Made by a program: the position numbers and the translations under genes. A stretch of 33,635 nt of DNA, taken from Spirochaetia bacterium. GTDB taxonomy: Bacteria > Spirochaetota > Spirochaetia > DAHUYW01. The DNA lies in the NCBI GenBank assembly GCA_030041455.1, contig JASHNV010000074.1, positions 1-33,635 on the forward strand, given 5' to 3'. This document shows positions 3,531 to 12,430 of this stretch, in pieces; the first letter of the stretch is position 1; every line of letters starts with the position of its first letter. A model generated the notes under the pieces. It searched no databases. It was not told the DNA's origin and was given only the letters and a program-made list of their open reading frames with translations.

Positions 3531-4772
3531 CTACCCGAGCGCCGCCCGCTTGCGGCGAAGAAGAGCGCGCTCGGCCGGCGACGTTTGATGTCCAAGAGCG
3601 CTGTCGAGAAACGCGCGCGCTTCGTCGATGTGTCCGAGCGAAGCATGCAGCTCGGCGTACACCGCGAGCGCGTACGGGTAGTGCGCGAGCAACTCTCGTT
3701 CAGGGATCGCATCGAGCTCGTCGATCCCGGCACTCGCCCCGCGGCACATGGCGACCGCGAATGCGCGGTTGACTTCGACGACGGGAGAAGGAGATATCTC
3801 GCGAAGCGTGTCGTACAGCGTGAGAATTTCGGTCCAGTCCGTCGTCGCATAGCTCGTCGCCGTCGCGTGGCAGGAGGCGATACCGGCCTCGACGTGGAAA
3901 CGCGACAACTCCGGGCCTCGCGCCGATCTGCCGAGGAAGGCGAACCCTTCGGCGAGGAGCGACTCGTCCCACAGAGACCGATCCTGCTCGTGGAGCATAA
4001 GGAGACTCCCGTCGCTCGCGCGGCGGGCCGGGGTCCGGCTCGCGTGGAGACACATCAGGGCGCGTAAGGATTCCGCCTGAGGCGAAGTCCACCGTTCGTC
4101 GTCGGTCAGCAAACGGACGAGTCGAAGCGATTCGTTGCAGAGGGCGTCGTCGATGCCGGCCTCGCTGTCGGTAGCCGCGTAACCCTCCGTGAAGAGCTGG
4201 TACAGTACCTCAAGCATCGGTGGCAGGCGCGCCGATACGTCACGATGCTCGGGAAGCTCGACCTGAACGCCTTTCTCGCGAAGCGAACGTTTCGCCCTGA
4301 CGACGCGTTGAGCGACCGTACGCTCGTCGGAAAGAAAGGCCCGGGCGATCTGGGCGTTGCCGAATCCGAAAACGACACGGAGAGTGAGCGCGACCTGAGC
4401 GGCGCGCGGAAGCACCGGGTGGCAACAGAAGAAAACGAGGCGTAGCTCGTCGTCGACGTCAAACTCAGGCTGGTCGATCGCGATGCCGTCCTCGGGAAGG
4501 GCCGTGATCTTTCGGTCGCGTCGCAACGTATCGATGACGATGTTGTGGGCGACGCGCACCAACCACCCTTCAAGCTGCCTGCTCTCCGCCTCGCCCTTCC
4601 ACCGTTCGAGCGAGCGAGCCCCCGCCTCCTGGACGGCGTCTTCGACGAGATCGAAGCGATCCGCCCCGAACCGCCGAACGAGCGCCGCAATGAGGCGGCT
4701 GCGCGCCGCCTTGAAGACCCGTTGGAGGGCGAGGCGTCGAGCGTCAGAGGCCTCCACGCGGCAATTCCTCAT
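3531..4772 (-). CDS. ECF-type RNA polymerase sigma factor, ECF42 group (with C-terminal DUF6596/TPR-like region)
   Basis: The protein has up to 413 residues. Region sigma2 (about 20-85) includes FDLVEDAVQEA and GWLVRVAHNIVIDTLRRDRK. Region sigma4 (about 125-170) includes GFGNAQIARAFLSDERTVAQ. The C-terminal 240 residues contain MLEVLYQLFTEGYAA, the DUF6596 signature of ECF42 sigma factors, followed by TPR-like helices. ECF42 factors have no classic anti-sigma; the extension is thought to control activity. The gene overlaps the upstream YCII gene by 29 bases if ATG 4772 is used. A GTG at 4757 has a better ribosome-binding site (GAGG, 9 bases upstream) and may be the true start. It is autoregulated if the promoter at 5130-5157 is real. 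A 12-base palindrome (3517-3528) follows the stop. Confidence 0.93.
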   Translation of the reverse strand: MRNCRVEASDARRLALQRVFKAARSRLIAALVRRFGADRFDLVEDAVQEAGARSLERWKGEAESRQLEGWLVRVAHNIVIDTLRRDRKITALPEDGIAIDQPEFDVDDELRLVFFCCHPVLPRAAQVALTLRVVFGFGNAQIARAFLSDERTVAQRVVRAKRSLREKGVQVELPEHRDVSARLPPMLEVLYQLFTEGYAATDSEAGIDDALCNESLRLVRLLTDDERWTSPQAESLRALMCLHASRTPARRASDGSLLMLHEQDRSLWDESLLAEGFAFLGRSARGPELSRFHVEAGIASCHATATSYATTDWTEILTLYDTLREISPSPVVEVNRAFAVAMCRGASAGIDELDAIPERELLAHYPYALAVYAELHASLGHIDEARAFLDSALGHQTSPAERALLRRKRAALG

Positions 4773-5109
4773 CCACGACGCGCACCTCGATATAGCCGTT
4801 CTGCGCGACGAGAGCCGGGCAGGAGCGCGCGAGATCGACGGCCTCTTCCAAGGAGTCGGCCTCGACGAGGCAGACTCCGCCGACCGCCTCCTTCGTTTCC
4901 ATGAATGGACCCTCCACGACCTGCCCGGCGCGCACCGTCAGCCGAGCGCCGGTCTGATCCTTGAGCTTATGCGAGGCTACGTAGTTGCCTTTTTCGCGTA
5001 ACGACTCTATCCAGCGTAAGAACTGTTCACGCACCTGCGGCGCGAAGGTCGGGTTGCTGGTGCGTTTGTCGAGGTCGGCGCCGCCGAAGAACAACACATA
5101 TTTGGCCAT
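4744..5109 (-). CDS. YCII-related (DGPF) domain protein
   Basis: This 121-residue protein starts MAKYVLFFGGADLDK at ATG 5109, with AAGGAGA just upstream. It has the characteristic block VVEGPFMETKEAVGG (the DGPF motif, with E replacing D) and a dimeric alpha-beta barrel layout like YciI. The enzymatic role is not established. One or several DGPF proteins are the standard genomic partners of ECF42 sigma factors, and here the gene overlaps the sigma gene in one operon. The 5' untranslated region would be only about 10-15 bases if the promoter at 5130-5157 is used. Confidence 0.92.
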   Translation of the reverse strand: MAKYVLFFGGADLDKRTSNPTFAPQVREQFLRWIESLREKGNYVASHKLKDQTGARLTVRAGQVVEGPFMETKEAVGGVCLVEADSLEEAVDLARSCPALVAQNGYIEVRVVDEELPRGGL

Positions 5110-5129
5110 ACCACTTCTCCTTACGACAA

Positions 5130-5157
5130 GAACGTTCAAGGGGTCGGAAAATCGACA
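5130..5157 (-). promoter_or_regulatory. ECF42-type promoter for the YCII-sigma operon
   Basis: Minus-strand TGTCGA (5157-5152), 17 bases, then CGTTC (5134-5130). From memory of published ECF42 work, the -35 motif is TGTCGA and the -10 motif is CGT/CGA-like. The -10 ends 20 bases upstream of the YCII start codon. The same element occurs in mirror image at 5200-5227. Confidence 0.72.
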
Positions 5158-5208
5158 TGCTGCGACGACGGGAGCCGCGCCGCTCCTCTCCCGACCACAT
5201 GTCGATTT
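5149..5208. repeat. 11-base inverted repeat AAATCGACATG / CATGTCGATTT
   Basis: The arms at 5149-5159 and 5198-5208 are perfect and separated by 38 bases. They are explained by two outward-facing ECF42-type -35 elements extended by identical flanks (CATGTCGATTT on each strand). The centre contains a small GGAGC/GCTCC stem. It could also act as a cruciform or regulator site. Confidence 0.75.
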
Positions 5209-5227
5209 GAGAGCCGTCCATCCGTTC
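5200..5227 (+). promoter_or_regulatory. ECF42-type promoter facing the LUD/MFS genes
   Basis: Plus-strand TGTCGA (5200-5205), 17 bases, then CGTTC (5223-5227): the same spacing and -10 as the minus-strand copy. The LUD gene starts 108 bases further on. The leader also contains an inverted repeat ACACGC/GCGTGT (5251-5271). If it works, the sigma factor controls the LUD gene and perhaps the MFS gene. Confidence 0.65.
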
Positions 5228-5334
5228 TCGTGACGTAGCGAAGATGTCAAACACGCACGGTACGCGCGTGTCGACGAATACCAAGGCTCGCCAAGGCGCC
5301 GGCGCAGAGCCGGGCCGGGCCGCGAGGAGGACGT

Positions 5335-5961
5335 ATGGATTTCGATATCATGGCGCCGGACGCCGCCATAGAGTCAACGGTGGAGGCCGTCAGGAGGCGG
5401 AACATTCGCGTGGTCGTTCTCGGCTCGAAAGCGCAAGCGCTTTCGCGGCTGAAGGAGATGATTCCGGGCGGGGCGTCCGTTTCGACCGGATATTCGCGTA
5501 CGTTGAAGGAGATCGGATTCGAAGATCTCCTCAAGTCGGGAGATCACCCATGGCGCAACTTCAAGGCCGAAATTGCGGCGGAAACCGACCGCTCCCGGCA
5601 GATGGCGGTCCGAAGACAGTCGATGCTGGCGGACTACTACGTCGGAAGCGTGAGCGCGATCGCGGCCTCGGGAGAGCTCGTGTTCGGCAGCCAGAGCGGA
5701 AGCCAGCTCGCTCCGTACGCCTACAGCGCTTCGAACGCGATTTGGGTCGCCGGCGCGCAGAAGATCACGCCCGATCTCGAGGGCGCCGTCGAACGTGTCA
5801 GACGCTACCTGGTTCCCGTGCTCGACAACGACATGAAAGAGCGGACGGCTGGAAAGATGGGAGTCTTCATCGGCAAGCTTCTGATCTTCGAGCGGGAGGA
5901 CGCGGGCAACGTGGATCGTACCGTGACCTTGCTGCTCGTGCGCGAGAAGGTGGGCTTATGA
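5335..5961 (+). CDS. LUD domain protein (DUF162, LutC-like)
   Basis: The 208-residue protein starts at an ATG preceded by GAGGAGG. It has the LUD-fold layout: an N-terminal helix with AIESTVEAVRRRNIRVVVLG, the GASVSTGYSRTLKEIGF block, then YYVGSVSAIAASGELVFGSQ and a C-terminal RTVTLLLVREKVGL. Family members include LutC and LutB parts of lactate utilisation, but many stand alone with unknown roles. No lutA or lutB partner and no iron-sulfur cysteines are seen, so a lactate role is not supported. It probably belongs to the ECF42 regulon through the promoter at 5200-5227. The MFS gene follows 236 bases later on the same strand. Confidence 0.82.
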   Translation: MDFDIMAPDAAIESTVEAVRRRNIRVVVLGSKAQALSRLKEMIPGGASVSTGYSRTLKEIGFEDLLKSGDHPWRNFKAEIAAETDRSRQMAVRRQSMLADYYVGSVSAIAASGELVFGSQSGSQLAPYAYSASNAIWVAGAQKITPDLEGAVERVRRYLVPVLDNDMKERTAGKMGVFIGKLLIFEREDAGNVDRTVTLLLVREKVGL

Positions 5962-6197
5962 AGACCTACGGCCCGCTTGGGGAGGTACACACTGCGGAGC
6001 GCAAGGGCTGTCGAAGTCCCTAGGAGCCGAGGTCGACCTCGGCCTGCATGAGAGGAGAGATGGATCTCAGGCGGGTGAAAACGCGAAAAGAGCGCTTCGA
6101 TCCGCCTCAGTCTACCTGCAATGCGCCCGTGCGAGAGCGCAGAGCGCGACGTGCGCGGCGACATGCCGCGGCACGCGTCGCGAGGAGGATGTTTCAT

Positions 6198-7757
6198 ATG
6201 AACACGGATGTCATAACGGCCGCTCATCGTTCAGAGCGCGGCCTAGTGCTCGCGGGATTGCTGCTTGCGATCGGACTTTCAGCGATGGACGGATCCATCG
6301 TGGCGACGGCAGTTCCTTCCGTTGTCGCCGCTCTCGGCGGCGTCACCCAATTCCCCTGGCTCTTTTCCGCCTATCTTCTCGCGTCGACCGTCACCATACC
6401 TTTGTACGGGAAGCTCGCGGATCAATTTGGGCGCAAGCGGCTGCTCATGGCCGGCAGCGCGATTTTTATCCTCGGTTCCGCCGCGAGCGGGTTGGCCTGG
6501 AACATGCCCTCGCTCATCCTCTTCCGCGCGATACAGGGCATCGGCGCAGGCGCCTTGCTCCCTCTCGCCCAAACCATCGCCGGCGACCTCTATACCGTCG
6601 AGGAGCGCGGACGCATCCAGGGTGTCCTCGCGAGCGTGTGGGGAATCTCGGCCGTGCTCGGACCCCTCGCCGGAGGACTATTCACGGAATTCCTCACGTG
6701 GCGCTGGATCTTTTTCGTGAACGTGCCCCTCGGGATCGCGGCGATCGCGGTCATCGCGGCGTTCTTCCATGAGCGCCCGGCTCGCCGTGTCGTTCGTACC
6801 GATTACGCCGGCGCCGCGCTTCTCGTCACAGGTCTCGGCGCGGTCATGCTCGTGCTGCTCGAAGCCGGGAGCGCATGGGGATGGAGTGACGCGCGTACCG
6901 TAGGCATCGGAGCGTGCGGGGTGCTGGTCATAGGAGCGTTTGTCCTGCGCGAACGCCGCGCCGATAATCCGATCTTTCCGCTGTGGATCCTCGGAAACCG
7001 GACACTTGCGTGCGCGACGCTCGCGATGCTCGTGGTCGGCCTCATGGTCCTCGGCGTGAGCGCATACCTGCCGACGTTCGCCCAATCGGTGTTCGCCGCA
7101 ACGCCGATCGTGGCTGGAGGTATTTTCGGCCTTATGTCCATAGCCTGGGCCTCGTCGGCCGCCCTTTCCGGGCGTCTCTACATGAAGATCGGCTTTCGCA
7201 ACACGGCTCTCGTCGGTTCGCTTTTTGCGACGTGCGGGGCGCTGATTTTCGCGCTGATTGGACCCTCGAGCAGCATCATGCTCCTTCCCGTCGGCTGCGC
7301 CGTCATGGGTTTCGGTTGCGGGCTCATTTCCTCGCCGATGATCGTCGGAGCGCAATCCATCGTGGATTGGGGGCGCCGCGGCGTGGTAACGGGAGCGGTA
7401 GCCTTCGGTCAAAGTCTCGGCGGCACCGTCAGCGCGGCGCTCATGGGAAGCGTCTTCAATACCTCGCTCGTTCGCTGGATTACGAGCGCGCCCGTATCGC
7501 TTCGCCCGTTGCTGCCGACGCCCGATCACGCGGTTGAGGCGCTTCGCAATTCCGCGACCCACGTCGCGAGCTACGTTCGCCAAGGGCTCTACCTCGCGGT
7601 GCATCGCGTCGACCTCGGCATCTTTGCCGCCGCGGCCGTCGGCCTTGGAATCGTTTTTCTTACCCCGCGCAAGTTTGAGCACATTCCGACGGCTTCCCGT
7701 GCCGAAGCGCCTCTTGATCGAGCCGAAGGCGCGCGAGAGGCGAGCTCCGCGGTTTGA
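6198..7757 (+). CDS. MFS exporter, DHA2 (EmrB/QacA) type, 14 TM
   Basis: The protein has 519 residues from ATG 6198, nine bases after GAGGAGG (6182-6188); an ATG at 6189 is too close to that site. TM1 carries Asp31 (SAMDGSIVATAVP). Motif A is GKLADQFGRKRLL (71-83), a second block is RAIQGIGAGALLPLA, and antiporter motif C is GISAVLGPLAGG (about 149-160). The length fits 14-TM drug:proton antiporters such as EmrB and QacA. It probably exports toxic organic compounds across the inner membrane; the substrate is unknown. It lies downstream of the ECF42-linked LUD gene on the same strand and may be co-transcribed or use its own promoter in 5962-6197. Confidence 0.92.
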   Translation: MNTDVITAAHRSERGLVLAGLLLAIGLSAMDGSIVATAVPSVVAALGGVTQFPWLFSAYLLASTVTIPLYGKLADQFGRKRLLMAGSAIFILGSAASGLAWNMPSLILFRAIQGIGAGALLPLAQTIAGDLYTVEERGRIQGVLASVWGISAVLGPLAGGLFTEFLTWRWIFFVNVPLGIAAIAVIAAFFHERPARRVVRTDYAGAALLVTGLGAVMLVLLEAGSAWGWSDARTVGIGACGVLVIGAFVLRERRADNPIFPLWILGNRTLACATLAMLVVGLMVLGVSAYLPTFAQSVFAATPIVAGGIFGLMSIAWASSAALSGRLYMKIGFRNTALVGSLFATCGALIFALIGPSSSIMLLPVGCAVMGFGCGLISSPMIVGAQSIVDWGRRGVVTGAVAFGQSLGGTVSAALMGSVFNTSLVRWITSAPVSLRPLLPTPDHAVEALRNSATHVASYVRQGLYLAVHRVDLGIFAAAAVGLGIVFLTPRKFEHIPTASRAEAPLDRAEGAREASSAV

Positions 7758-7779
7758 CCGCGTGGCCTGACGCCGTCGC

Positions 7780-7827
7780 GTCGTCCTCCCCCTCTTTCAG
7801 GTCGCTCTGTGTGCTGGGGAGGACGAC
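7780..7827. terminator. 12-base inverted repeat after the MFS gene
   Basis: GTCGTCCTCCCC (7780-7791) pairs perfectly with GGGGAGGACGAC (7816-7827) around a 24-base loop, 23 bases after the MFS stop. There is no T-run. It probably ends MFS transcription or protects the 3' end. The stretch 7828-8095 holds no gene I can support. Confidence 0.55.
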
Positions 7828-8095
7828 CTTCGCTTTGATCCGTGCCGCGCGGAGGGCTTGATCCTCGAGGCGTCTCCACCCGCGGACTCGGAAACCATCC
7901 ACGAACGCCGACGGCGTCGAGGGACATTGCGCGCATCATGGCCTCCGCGATGGAGACCCGATAGCCTGGTCGTTCGGCTCCACGCCGGCGCCGGCGTGGC
8001 GGCACCACCGGGTCGGCATCGACTCGTAGGGAACGCGACGGCGCGCCGGATCGGTTGAGATAGGCTCGTCGACGATATCCCGCGAACCCCCGCGG

Positions 8096-8134
8096 GGAAT
8101 GAGCGCGCCGGCCCGAGCTTGGCGCGGTCATTCC
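8096..8134 (-). terminator. Terminator-like hairpin of the thiamin operon
   Basis: GGAATGAGCGCGCC (8096-8109) and GGCGCGGTCATTCC (8121-8134) pair at 13 of 14 positions around an 11-base loop, directly next to the thiD stop codon (8135-8137). A second GC palindrome, CCCCGCGGGG, follows on the minus strand. The stem is strong and lacks a T-run. Confidence 0.6.
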
Positions 8135-8947
8135 TCAGGGAGGCGACGAGTCGGGAAGGAGAAGCGCTAGGTGGCTCATCGGACCGTGCCCGTGGCCGAG
8201 CGCCATCTTCGCCGACCGCTCGATGACCAGGGTCACGTAGTCCTTCGCCGCCCGGACCGCGTCGGCGACGGCGAGGCCGCGCGCGAGCTCGGCGGCGATC
8301 GCCGAGGCGAAGGTACAGCCGGTGCCGTGGTCGTTCCTCGTCTCGACGCGCCTCGCCGAGAGCTCGACGAAGCGCTCGCCGTCGTAGAGGAGATCGACGC
8401 TCTCGAGCGGATCCCGGAGGTGGCCGCCCTTCACGACGACGTTCCGGGGGCCCATCGCGCGGATCCTGCGCGCCGCCTCCCGCATCCCCTCGATGCCGCC
8501 GATCGCGAATCCGCAGAGCCTCTCGGCCTCGGGGAGGTTGGGGGTTACGACCGTCGCGAGGGGAAGCAGCATCGAGACGAGCGCCTCCCGCGCGTCGTCG
8601 CGAAGGAGCGAGTCGCCGCTCTTCGCCGCCATGACGGGATCCACGACGAGAGGCGAGAGGCGGTGCTTCCGGATCTCGGCCGCGACCGCTTCGATGATGG
8701 AGGCGGTGGGGATCATGCCGGTTTTCACCGCGTCGACCCCGAAGTCCCCCACCACCGATTCGATCTGAAGCGCCACGAACTCGGGAGGCACCTCGAAGAC
8801 CCCCTGAACGCCGAGGGAGTTCTGGGCCGTGAGGGCGGTTATCGCGCTCATGCCGAAGACGCCGCGGGCCGCGAAGGTCTTCAGGTCCGCCTGGATCCCG
8901 GCGCCGCCGCCTGAGTCCGATCCGGCGATCGTCAATGCTCTCTTCAT
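8135..8947 (-). CDS. thiD: Hydroxymethylpyrimidine/phosphomethylpyrimidine kinase
   Basis: The 270-residue ribokinase-fold enzyme phosphorylates HMP to HMP-P and then HMP-PP in thiamin synthesis and salvage. It has the N-terminal [17 protein letters not shown], then [26 protein letters not shown] and, near residue 210, [17 protein letters not shown] with the anion-hole GTGC. The length matches standalone ThiD, with no ThiE fusion. The ATG follows GGAGGA. It is the last gene of the riboswitch-controlled operon, 12 bases after thiL. Confidence 0.97.
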
Positions 8948-8959
8948 GCCGTCCTCCGC

Positions 8960-9979
8960 CTATCGCTTCGCGTGAAAATGGTCCCAGCCGCCGCCGTCGA
9001 TCGGGACCGCCCGGCCTCCGGGGAGAACGAGCTCGGCGGGCCGCCCTCCCTCGACGATCTCGCCGATCGTCGAGACGGGCGTGCCGGTCTCGCGCCAAAC
9101 GAGCTCGGCGAGCTCGCCGGCTCGCTCGGCCGGGGCCGTGAAGATGAGCTCGTAGTCCTCCCCGCCGCGGAGGGCGAAGCGCCACTCGTCGCCCGAGGCC
9201 GCGCGGGAAAGCGCGCGGTTCTCCTCCGCGACCGGAAGGGCCTCGGAGAACAGGCGCGCGCCGCAGGCGCTCCGCTCGCAGATGTGGCCGAGATCGGCGG
9301 CGAGCCCGTCGCTCACGTCCGCCATCGCGGTCGCAAGCCGCGACCTCCCGATGAGCGCGCCTTCGCGGACCCGCGGCGTCGGCGCGTCGCGCCTCGCGCG
9401 GGCGACGCGCGCGTAGGCCTCGCTCGTCGAAAGCGCCCCGTCGAGGAGAAGCGCGACCCCCGCGGAGGCGTCGCCGAGGGAGCCCGTGACTAGGACCCGG
9501 TCGCCGGGGCGGGCGCCCGAGCGAAGGACGACCTCCTCCCGGGAGGCTTCCCCGAGGAGGAAAAGGTCGATGAAGAGCCCCGCGCTCGTCCGCGACATGT
9601 TGCCGCCCACGACGCACACGCCGAAGGTATCGGCCTGTGCGCGCAGGCCCGCGTAGAGCCCGTCGACCCACTCCACGTCGAGCTCCTCGGGAAGGCCGAG
9701 GGAGACGAGCGCGAAGCGCGGCGTCCCGCCGGAGGCGGCGACGTCGCTCAGGTTGATCGCAAGCGCCTTCGCTCCGAGATCCCGCGGGGAGATCGCGCCG
9801 CGCACGAAGTGCGAGCCTTCCACCTGGACGTCGCAGGTCGCGAGCCAGACGCGCCCGCCGTCCCCCGCGATGACCGCGACATCGTCGCCGATGCCGACGA
9901 TCACGTCGCCCGAGGGCGCGGGAAGCAGTCTCCTCACCCGGTCGATGAGACCGAACTCGCCGAGCTCGCCGATCTTCAT
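8960..9979 (-). CDS. thiL: Thiamin-monophosphate kinase
   Basis: The 339-residue cytosolic enzyme makes thiamin diphosphate from thiamin monophosphate with ATP, the final step of the pathway. It shows the N-terminal [23 protein letters not shown] (29-37, metal-binding aspartates), [26 protein letters not shown], a central [16 protein letters not shown] and C-terminal [12 protein letters not shown], all hallmarks of ThiL in the PurM/AIR-synthase superfamily. Length and motif order are normal. It lies between thiM (45 bases upstream) and thiD (12 bases downstream). Confidence 0.97.
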
Positions 9980-10024
9980 GCCGGGATCCCCGTCCGCTTT
10001 CCCGCGCCGGGAAGGGTAGGCCGG

Positions 10025-10849
10025 CTACGCAGCAAGGTCCACCACCCTGACTCCCCGCTCAACCCCCGCGGGAGTGAGGCGGGCGAGGGCGTCGAGAAGC
10101 TCGGCGCGGAAGCTCCCGGGACCCCGGGAGCGGCGGGCGGCTTCCTCGGCCGCGAGCCCGTAGCAGGCGAGCGCCGAGGCGGCGGCGCGCAGGAAGTCGC
10201 CCTCGACGGCGGCGAAGACCGCGATCGCGGAGGTCGCCATGCAGCCGGTGCCCGTGATGGTCTTGAGCATCTCGTGACCGTTGTCCACGCCGAGCGCGCG
10301 CCTGCCGTCTGAGACGACGTCGCGCTTGCCGGTGATGACCACGACGCTCGAGCGCTTCGCCGCGAGCGCGCTGGCGACCGCGACGGGGTCGGAGACGTCT
10401 TCGATCGAGTCGACGCCCCGAACGACGCCGCCCGCGCCGGCGAGGGAGCCGATCTCGCCCGAGTTGCCGCGGACGATCGCGACCTTAAGCTCGCGCAGGA
10501 GCCGCTCGGCGGTCTCGCTTCGAAAGCGCGTCGCGCCCGCGCCGACCGGGTCGTAGACGACGGGAATCCCGCGCCCGTTCGCGGCCTTCCCCGCGACGAG
10601 CATCGACTCCACCCATTCGGGTTGGAGCGTTCCTGCGTTGAGCACGAGCGCGCCCGCGGCCCGGACCATCTCCTCGACCTCCTCCCTCGCGTGCGCCATG
10701 ACCGGAAGGGCGCCGAGGGCAAGCGTCGCGTTCGCCGTGTCGTTCATCACGACGAAGTTCGTGATGTGGTGAATGAGCGGCCGCTTCGAGCGGACTCTCT
10801 CGAGGAGCTCCGCCGCGAAGGCCGCGGCGTTCTTGTCGTACGGTTTCAT
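10025..10849 (-). CDS. thiM: Hydroxyethylthiazole kinase
   Basis: The 274-residue ribokinase-like enzyme phosphorylates 4-methyl-5-(2-hydroxyethyl)thiazole in thiazole salvage. It has PLIHHITNFVVMNDTANATL near the N-terminus (substrate loop), VVYDPVGAGATRFR, and ITGTGCMATSAIAVF with the catalytic-region Cys. The start codon overlaps the cytX stop in an ATGA arrangement, so translation is coupled. A GGGGAAG site precedes the ATG. Together with ThiD it points to salvage of both thiamin halves. Confidence 0.97.
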   Translation of the reverse strand: MKPYDKNAAAFAAELLERVRSKRPLIHHITNFVVMNDTANATLALGALPVMAHAREEVEEMVRAAGALVLNAGTLQPEWVESMLVAGKAANGRGIPVVYDPVGAGATRFRSETAERLLRELKVAIVRGNSGEIGSLAGAGGVVRGVDSIEDVSDPVAVASALAAKRSSVVVITGKRDVVSDGRRALGVDNGHEMLKTITGTGCMATSAIAVFAAVEGDFLRAAASALACYGLAAEEAARRSRGPGSFRAELLDALARLTPAGVERGVRVVDLAA

Positions 10850-12258
10850 CGAGCTTCCCCGCTTTCGGCCGCGTCGCGGACCGAACCCCGGAAAAGACTC
10901 CCGAGGACCCCGTAGCAGACGAACGACACGATAAAGCCGGGAAGCGATCCGCCGAACGTCGTGAGAGACGCGGGGAAGAGCTTCGGCCACTGCGGGATGA
11001 ACGACGAGAGGGTGGTCGGATTCGTGACGTTGTAGACGACGATTCCGACGACCCACACGGCGATGCCGACCACGTTCACGCCGCCGCTCCTCCAATACTC
11101 GCCGCCCCGGCGGTAGAGCTCCTCGATGTGGTAGTTCCGCCGCCTCACGACGAAGTAGTCGGCGGCGAGGATGCCGAAGAGCGGTATGAAGAACGAGCCG
11201 ATCAGGAAGAGGAAGCTCTGGTACTGCGTGATATCGAGCACGATCGCGACGAGGAGGCACGCGGCTCCGAGGCCGACGATCAGCCAGCGCTGGCGAACCT
11301 TCGGGAAGACGTTCTGCAGCGACACGGAAGAGGAGTAGAGGTCCGCCCAGGCGTTGTGGGTCTCGTCGGCGAGGAGAATCAGGAGCGCCACCCAGCCCGC
11401 GGTGAGCGCGATCGCGGCGGCGAAATCCCTCGGCTCCTGCTTGACGTTCGCGCCGAGGAGCGCCATCGCCCCGATCGCGAGGAACCACGCGTTCGTGATG
11501 AAGAAGCTCGCGACCGTGCCCCAGAAAGCCGAAACGGTCCGCCGGGCGAAGCGGTTGTAGTCCGCCACAAGCGGCATCCAGGAGATCGGCAGGGCGATCA
11601 CGAGATCGACGGCGATCCAGAAGGGGAGGGATCCGTCGCTCGGCTTCGCGAGGAGCGTCCGTAGACCGTACGATGAGAGCAGATGATAGGTCAGCCACAC
11701 GCCGGTTGCGAGCGCGATCCACACCGCGAACCGCTTGAGCCATCGGCGAACGACGCCCAACGGGCCTCCGAGGCCCATGAGGATCACGATGCAGGCGAAG
11801 AGGATCGTCCACAGCGGATAGCTCGAGAACCCGAAGAGCTTGCCGCTGATGGCGTTCGCGGCGACGCCCATGACCACGAACTCGAAGATCGTCCAGCCGA
11901 GGAGCTGAAGCACGTTGAGCGCGGTGGGAATATACGATCCCCTCGTGCCGAGGACCGGGCGGAGGAGCACCATCGTCGGCACGCCCGTGTCGCTTCCGAT
12001 CGCGCCCACCGACGCGAGGAGGAGACAGCCGAGCGCGCTCCCGATGAGGATCGCGAGAAAAGCGCTCCCCAAGCCGAGCCCCGGGACGAGAAAGGTTCCG
12101 GTGAGCATGACGAGGAGCCCGATTCCGAGATCGCCCCACAAAATCGCATAGTCGTGAAACCGGAGGACTCGATGCTCCCGTGCTACCGGCTCGATCCCCC
12201 ACTCGGGCGGCGCCTGCACCCGCGGCGTAAAGCGCTTCAATCGCTCAGAAAGCGTCAT
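10846..12258 (-). CDS. cytX: NCS1-family hydroxymethylpyrimidine permease CytX
   Basis: This 470-residue polytopic inner-membrane protein has about 12 predicted hydrophobic segments. The NCS1 start block EWGIEPVAREHRVLRFHDYA is followed by WGDLGIGLLVMLTGTFLVPG; ISWMPLVADYNRFAR is typical of the NCS1/CodB/CytX family. Members under TPP riboswitches are called CytX and are thought to import HMP; substrate identity rests on this context. The start (ATG 12258) follows GGAGGTCGG. It is the first gene of the operon, directly behind the riboswitch and terminator. Confidence 0.93.
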   Translation of the reverse strand: MTLSERLKRFTPRVQAPPEWGIEPVAREHRVLRFHDYAILWGDLGIGLLVMLTGTFLVPGLGLGSAFLAILIGSALGCLLLASVGAIGSDTGVPTMVLLRPVLGTRGSYIPTALNVLQLLGWTIFEFVVMGVAANAISGKLFGFSSYPLWTILFACIVILMGLGGPLGVVRRWLKRFAVWIALATGVWLTYHLLSSYGLRTLLAKPSDGSLPFWIAVDLVIALPISWMPLVADYNRFARRTVSAFWGTVASFFITNAWFLAIGAMALLGANVKQEPRDFAAAIALTAGWVALLILLADETHNAWADLYSSSVSLQNVFPKVRQRWLIVGLGAACLLVAIVLDITQYQSFLFLIGSFFIPLFGILAADYFVVRRRNYHIEELYRRGGEYWRSGGVNVVGIAVWVVGIVVYNVTNPTTLSSFIPQWPKLFPASLTTFGGSLPGFIVSFVCYGVLGSLFRGSVRDAAESGEAR

Positions 12259-12290
12259 TCCGACCTCCTTCAGGCGGGGAGGGCGGAGAT

Positions 12291-12318
12291 AAAAAACCGC
12301 CCTCCTTTCAGGGGCGGC
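12291..12318 (-). terminator. Intrinsic terminator in the thiamin leader (riboswitch expression platform)
   Basis: On the minus strand CCGCCC-CT-GAAA-GG-AGGGCGG forms a stem (12297-12302 with 12312-12317) followed by six T (12296-12291). It lies between the TPP aptamer and the cytX ribosome-binding site, so TPP binding most likely stops transcription before cytX. Confidence 0.85.
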
Positions 12319-12333
12319 TTCCTCGGACACCAC

Positions 12334-12430
12334 GTACCGTCCCTTCGCTGGCATTATCCAGATCAGGTTCAACGGGTCGGCGACCAACAGTCGCCCTCTC
12401 AGCCCGGTCAATCCCGAGCTCCCCGGCGGC
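12334..12430 (-). ncRNA. TPP (THI-box) riboswitch
   Basis: The minus strand contains the two invariant blocks of the TPP aptamer: GGGCTGAGAG (CTGAGA at 12402-12397) and GAACCTGATCTGGATAATGC with the following CAGCGAAGGGA (12370-12340). The helix GCTCGG/CCGGGC and a variable P3 arm GGCGACTGTTGGTCGCC are visible. The terminator at 12291-12318 completes an off-switch. It controls cytX-thiM-thiL-thiD. The outer limits are approximate. Confidence 0.97.

Follow-up and report, generated by a model that had tools for sequence, protein, structure and literature searches.

Two outward-facing ECF42-type promoters predicted between a YCII-sigma factor operon and a LUD-domain gene in a Spirochaetia bacterium

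ECF42 sigma factors are widespread, and the signals and targets of these regulators are poorly known. The presence of two near-identical promoter-like motifs pointing away from each other in a single intergenic region, one towards a YCII gene and an ECF42 sigma factor gene and one towards a LUD-domain gene, raises the question as to whether such a sigma factor controls both its own operon and a second, divergent target. In order to address this we analysed a stretch of 33,635 nucleotides from a Spirochaetia bacterium (hereafter the window) together with ECF42 and LUD loci of other genomes.

The ECF42 locus and its paired motif

The sigma factor gene (3531..4772, minus strand) encodes a protein of 413 aa in which the only sigma domains matched in Pfam are region 2 (Sigma70_r2, 3.7e-07) and region 4 (Sigma70_r4_2, 1e-07), with no sigma-70 region 3, and in which DUF6596 (7e-30) covers residues 182-283; no TPR model scored above cut-off in the C-terminal extension of about 200 residues. 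It lies downstream of a gene for a YCII-domain protein of 121 aa (4744..5109, minus strand; Pfam PF03795, 5e-13), the end of which is overlapped by the sigma gene start by 29 bases and the translation of which carries EGPF where DGPF is usual. Region 2, region 4, DUF6596 and an upstream YCII gene together are the ECF42 architecture, as described for these sigma domains and their YCII neighbour in PMC8999054. An earlier note on this DNA had placed the locus in ECF42, and the assignment is borne out by the domain architecture, by the YCII neighbour and by the equally spaced promoters of RpoE10, an ECF42 sigma factor of Sinorhizobium meliloti that activates two operons and whose listed promoters read TGTCGG-N17-CGTC, the spacer being counted here from the sequences given (PMC6180224).

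The window has two copies of the motif TGTCGA-N17-CGTTC and no more, one on each strand and both outward-facing, with the TGTCGA of each copy lying within CATGTCGATTT (5159..5149 on the minus strand and 5198..5208 on the plus strand). The minus-strand copy, TGTCGATTTTCCGACCCCTTGAACGTTC (5157..5130), is the predicted promoter of the YCII-sigma operon and consists of a -35 TGTCGA at 5157-5152, a 17-base spacer and a -10 CGTTC at 5134-5130, the end of which is exactly 20 bases from the YCII ATG (5109) with AAGGAG in between. The plus-strand copy, TGTCGATTTGAGAGCCGTCCATCCGTTC (5200..5227), is the predicted promoter facing the LUD gene, with its -35 at 5200-5205, a spacer of the same 17 bases, its -10 CGTTC at 5223-5227 and a leader of 107 bases before the LUD ATG (5335). 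An exact motif search therefore upholds the earlier description of one outward-facing copy per strand with equal spacing, as does the distance to ATG 5109 for the claim of a motif 20 bases from the operon start.

Relaxing the spacer to 15-19 bases returned only the same two matches in the window, where dinucleotide shuffles of its whole length gave a mean of 0.20. In 20,000 shuffles of the same kind, restricted to the 225-base intergenic region, the exact motif was produced 8 times counting either strand but not once on both, and a relaxed form 7 times on both. The two window promoters have in common the -35, the TTT that follows it, the spacer length and the -10, whereas their spacer sequences differ, and for this reason we rejected the idea that one promoter arose from the other by recent inverted duplication; identical elements around different spacers favour two sites read by one sigma factor.

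A search of the complete genome (3.39 Mb) gives four occurrences of the N17 form, namely the window pair and a 28-base sequence that two contigs share. The looser TGTCGA-N17/18-CGWC has 126 matches in the same GC-rich genome, and in 10 of the 13 genome stretches with such matches that we read the match lies within likely coding sequence. As the looser motif is this frequent and so often coding, the weight of the argument rests on position and on the full motif rather than on TGTCGA alone, and a genome-wide search for regulon members by motif alone was dropped as uninformative against this background.

The YCII-facing promoter and its relatives

We read 16 ECF42 loci, comprising three from the window's genome (the window itself and two more), one from G001, a genome of the same genus, ten from further genomes in the phylum, and one each from Polyangiaceae and an alphaproteobacterium. 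In the 2.5 kb upstream of the sigma gene, TGTCGA-N17/18-CGWY is present on the sigma strand at 10 of these (0.34 expected from shuffles) and on the opposite strand at 2 (0.44 expected). At an eleventh locus, on contig C184 of the window's genome, the motif falls just beyond the 2.5 kb limit, with TGTCGA-N17-CGAC lying 40 bases ahead of the MFS start in a gene run of the order MFS-YCII-hydrolase-sigma. This run occupies 6477-10601 of the stretch read (L054, G000:C184:18000-36000) and includes another YCII-like stretch (8139-8459); farther downstream come one more YCII gene, standing alone, and a DHA2 MFS gene. The first genes of motif-bearing operons include YCII, RibD_C (in G001) and MFS (on C184), and at one further locus (L102) a probable glyoxalase-like gene judged from its first codons only. 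The window -10 is CGTT, whereas most other loci have CGTC or CGAC. At four loci of the sampled phylum (L102, L103, L105 and L106) a run of about 7-8 T, resembling an UP element, lies about 5-15 bases before TGTCGA; the window promoters are without it.

The closest ortholog that we found is in a Polyangiaceae genome (L021/L108), with a YCII protein 63% and a sigma factor 66% identical to those of the window. Its promoter, TGTCGATCTGGCAGGCCTTCGGGCGTTC, has the exact motif, also 20 bases before the YCII ATG, and since motif and geometry are kept where the surrounding sequence has diverged both appear to be under selection. At 4940-4982 of L021 there is also a tight opposed pair, ATCGACA-N6-TGTCGAT. 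The opposed copy, TGTCGATTTT, is separated from the first by 8 bases; it lacks a proper -10, and the gene it points towards encodes a PAS histidine kinase. We regard the YCII-facing promoter of the window as very likely to be real, and autoregulation of the YCII-sigma operon, which the earlier note had proposed, is at the level of sequence the best-supported part of our reading and well supported, given the ECF42 architecture, the RpoE10 promoter spacing and the ortholog's motif at the same distance from the start codon. Such autoregulation is not universal among ECF42 sigma factors, as overexpression of RpoE10 left the expression of its own YCII gene and operon without an increase (PMC6180224).

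Another ECF42 sigma factor could also be the one that acts, in part or for the most part, at both promoters, as the genome encodes three ECF42-like sigmas (the others on contigs C123 and C184) and the paralogs' own upstream motifs share TGTCGA. We consider this very unlikely, as the paralogs are about 40% identical and their upstream -10 elements differ (CGTC at N18 and CGAC at N17), whereas the exact CGTTC form accompanies the window sigma and its Polyangiaceae ortholog. The neighbouring sigma factor remains the one that would read both sites.

The LUD-facing promoter and the reach of its transcript

The gene on the other side (5335..5961, plus strand) encodes a stand-alone LUD-domain protein of 208 aa (Pfam PF02589, 1.2e-24; 87.5 bits against a gathering threshold of 22.6) preceded by an AGGAGG ribosome site, with no match in NCBIfam. 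A tree places the protein among stand-alone LUD proteins from haloarchaea, from Streptomyces plasmids and from a small number of genomes in its class. The identical promoter elements, the different spacer sequence and the position argue that the LUD-facing promoter is likely to be real, and LUD transcription would then start just downstream of 5200-5227.

An alternative is that only the YCII-facing copy works and that the opposed TGTCGA forms an inverted repeat, AAATCGACATG-N38-CATGTCGATTT, bound by a dimeric regulator, or that the plus-strand copy is a leftover. This would fit with the MarR-family gene close to the locus (2324-2791) and with the Polyangiaceae ortholog, where there is also an opposed copy, without a proper -10 on its outward side and facing a gene other than LUD. 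An operator, however, would not need the -10 CGTTC that the window's plus-strand copy retains at the same spacing, the opposed TGTCGA cores are 42 bases apart in the window versus 8 in the ortholog, and in the 90 bases upstream of each of the nine other ECF42 promoters inspected there is no opposed TCGACA. We therefore judge this alternative unlikely and retain the reading of two probable promoters.

The sigma-LUD gene order itself was not found again in 393 genomes of the window's own phylum, 284 of the Polyangiaceae phylum, 151 of the phylum of an Armatimonadetes locus or in plasmids, although the Polyangiaceae-phylum and Armatimonadetes-phylum searches carry little weight because they gave zero LUD hits at all; the ortholog-bearing Polyangiaceae genome likewise gave no LUD hit. 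In G001 orthologs of the neighbouring genes at 8135-12411, including thi genes, are kept, but this genome has no close relative of the window sigma, the best match being 41% identical, nor any LUD hit. LUD loci of related genomes contained no ECF42 motif (L057-L086) and no sigma gene near LUD (L058-L086).

Behind the LUD gene, on the same strand, is a gene for an MFS exporter of 519 aa (6198..7757; Pfam MFS_1, 5.5e-53), the place of which in the LUD transcript is uncertain. The earlier label of DHA2 exporter holds as to the MFS family, but TIGR00711, the model for DHA2 efflux MFS proteins, scored 206.6 bits, below its curated cut-off of 230.2, and we therefore call the protein DHA2-like (EmrB-like) only. 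A gap of 236 bases (5962..6197) separates the two genes, with no gene between them, and we found in it neither a T-run terminator nor a sigma-70-type promoter, which speaks for read-through. The gap does hold an off-spaced TGTCGA-N19-CGAC (6009-6037) overlapped by an 18-base perfect palindrome, GCCGAGGTCGACCTCGGC (6026-6043), and the 9 kb read for a 55% identical MFS paralog on contig C22 contain no ECF42 motif. The chances are about even that the MFS gene has its own promoter in the gap, outside the LUD transcript, a situation compatible with both divergent promoters being real, and they fall somewhat short of even that it shares the transcript with LUD. Of the earlier proposal that the second promoter faces a LUD gene and an exporter, the LUD-facing site stands on its elements and position, whereas a single LUD/MFS unit is made uncertain by the gap.

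A proposed switch and its relation to known systems

Taken together these data make it reasonably probable that the locus is a self-amplifying ECF42 switch, in which the sigma factor drives its own operon and LUD and possibly the MFS exporter. Weighing against this reading are the CGTT form of the -10, the 107-base LUD leader, the 236-base gap before the MFS gene, the RpoE10 overexpression result and the finding of the sigma-LUD pair in no second genome. Judging from the literature the sigma factor would probably be restrained by the DUF6596/TPR-type extension at its C-terminus, the YCII protein being a candidate partner, and once active would direct RNA polymerase to the two back-to-back promoters, one serving the YCII-sigma operon and the other LUD and, by read-through, possibly the DHA2-like exporter. 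The sequence evidence is strong for the autoregulatory promoter and good but unreplicated for the divergent one. The earlier interpretation is thus retained in part, for ECF42, autoregulation and the LUD-facing site, with a single LUD/MFS unit as a possibility, but not for targets limited to DGPF genes, a view of known ECF42 targets that is too narrow given that RpoE10 activates glyoxalase-like genes (PMC6180224) and that the C184 operon behind the motif is MFS-headed.

This is a normal ECF42 locus of ordinary regulatory logic, and its unreported part is the LUD target, as we found no report of a LUD gene as an ECF42 target in the literature. A marked second target, LUD and perhaps an exporter, would provide a concrete regulon and a hint of ECF42 function, and the comparison of loci shows both that position is a workable guide to ECF42 promoters in GC-rich genomes and that the motif recurs ahead of operons whose first gene is MFS, RibD-like or probably glyoxalase-like.

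The two Streptomyces plasmids that carry a relative of the LUD gene each have a gene for a SigJ-type (ECF41) sigma factor close to it, one of these sigma genes being apparently incomplete. In L110 (NZ_CP109366.1 55445-66044, at 3859-5603) the sigma gene is directly divergent from LUD, and in L109 (NZ_CP115301.1 211227-221826, at 4974-7756) it is near LUD. These loci resemble the window in having a sigma gene near a related LUD gene but differ in ECF group, in their SnoaL-type extension and in that we saw no clear shared promoter motif. The two plasmid cases are suggestive of a wider link between LUD and ECF sigma factors; that sigma factors bearing a regulatory C-terminal extension (ECF41/ECF42) repeatedly have stand-alone LUD proteins as targets or partners, the LUD protein then acting in the stress response itself and not in lactate metabolism, is a tentative and rather doubtful extension of it.

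Known ECF42 systems include the Sven_0747 group of Streptomyces venezuelae and ECF-10 of Pseudomonas putida, reviewed in PMC8999054. The window locus resembles ECF42 systems in its long C-terminal extension, the YCII gene beside the sigma gene, promoters of the form TGTCG(A/G)-N17-CGT(C/T) and a small regulon. The RpoE10 regulon comprises hypothetical and glyoxalase-like genes and not LUD (PMC6180224), and what sets the window apart from the known systems is a divergent LUD gene as target, followed by a DHA2-like MFS gene, and a -10 of CGTTC.
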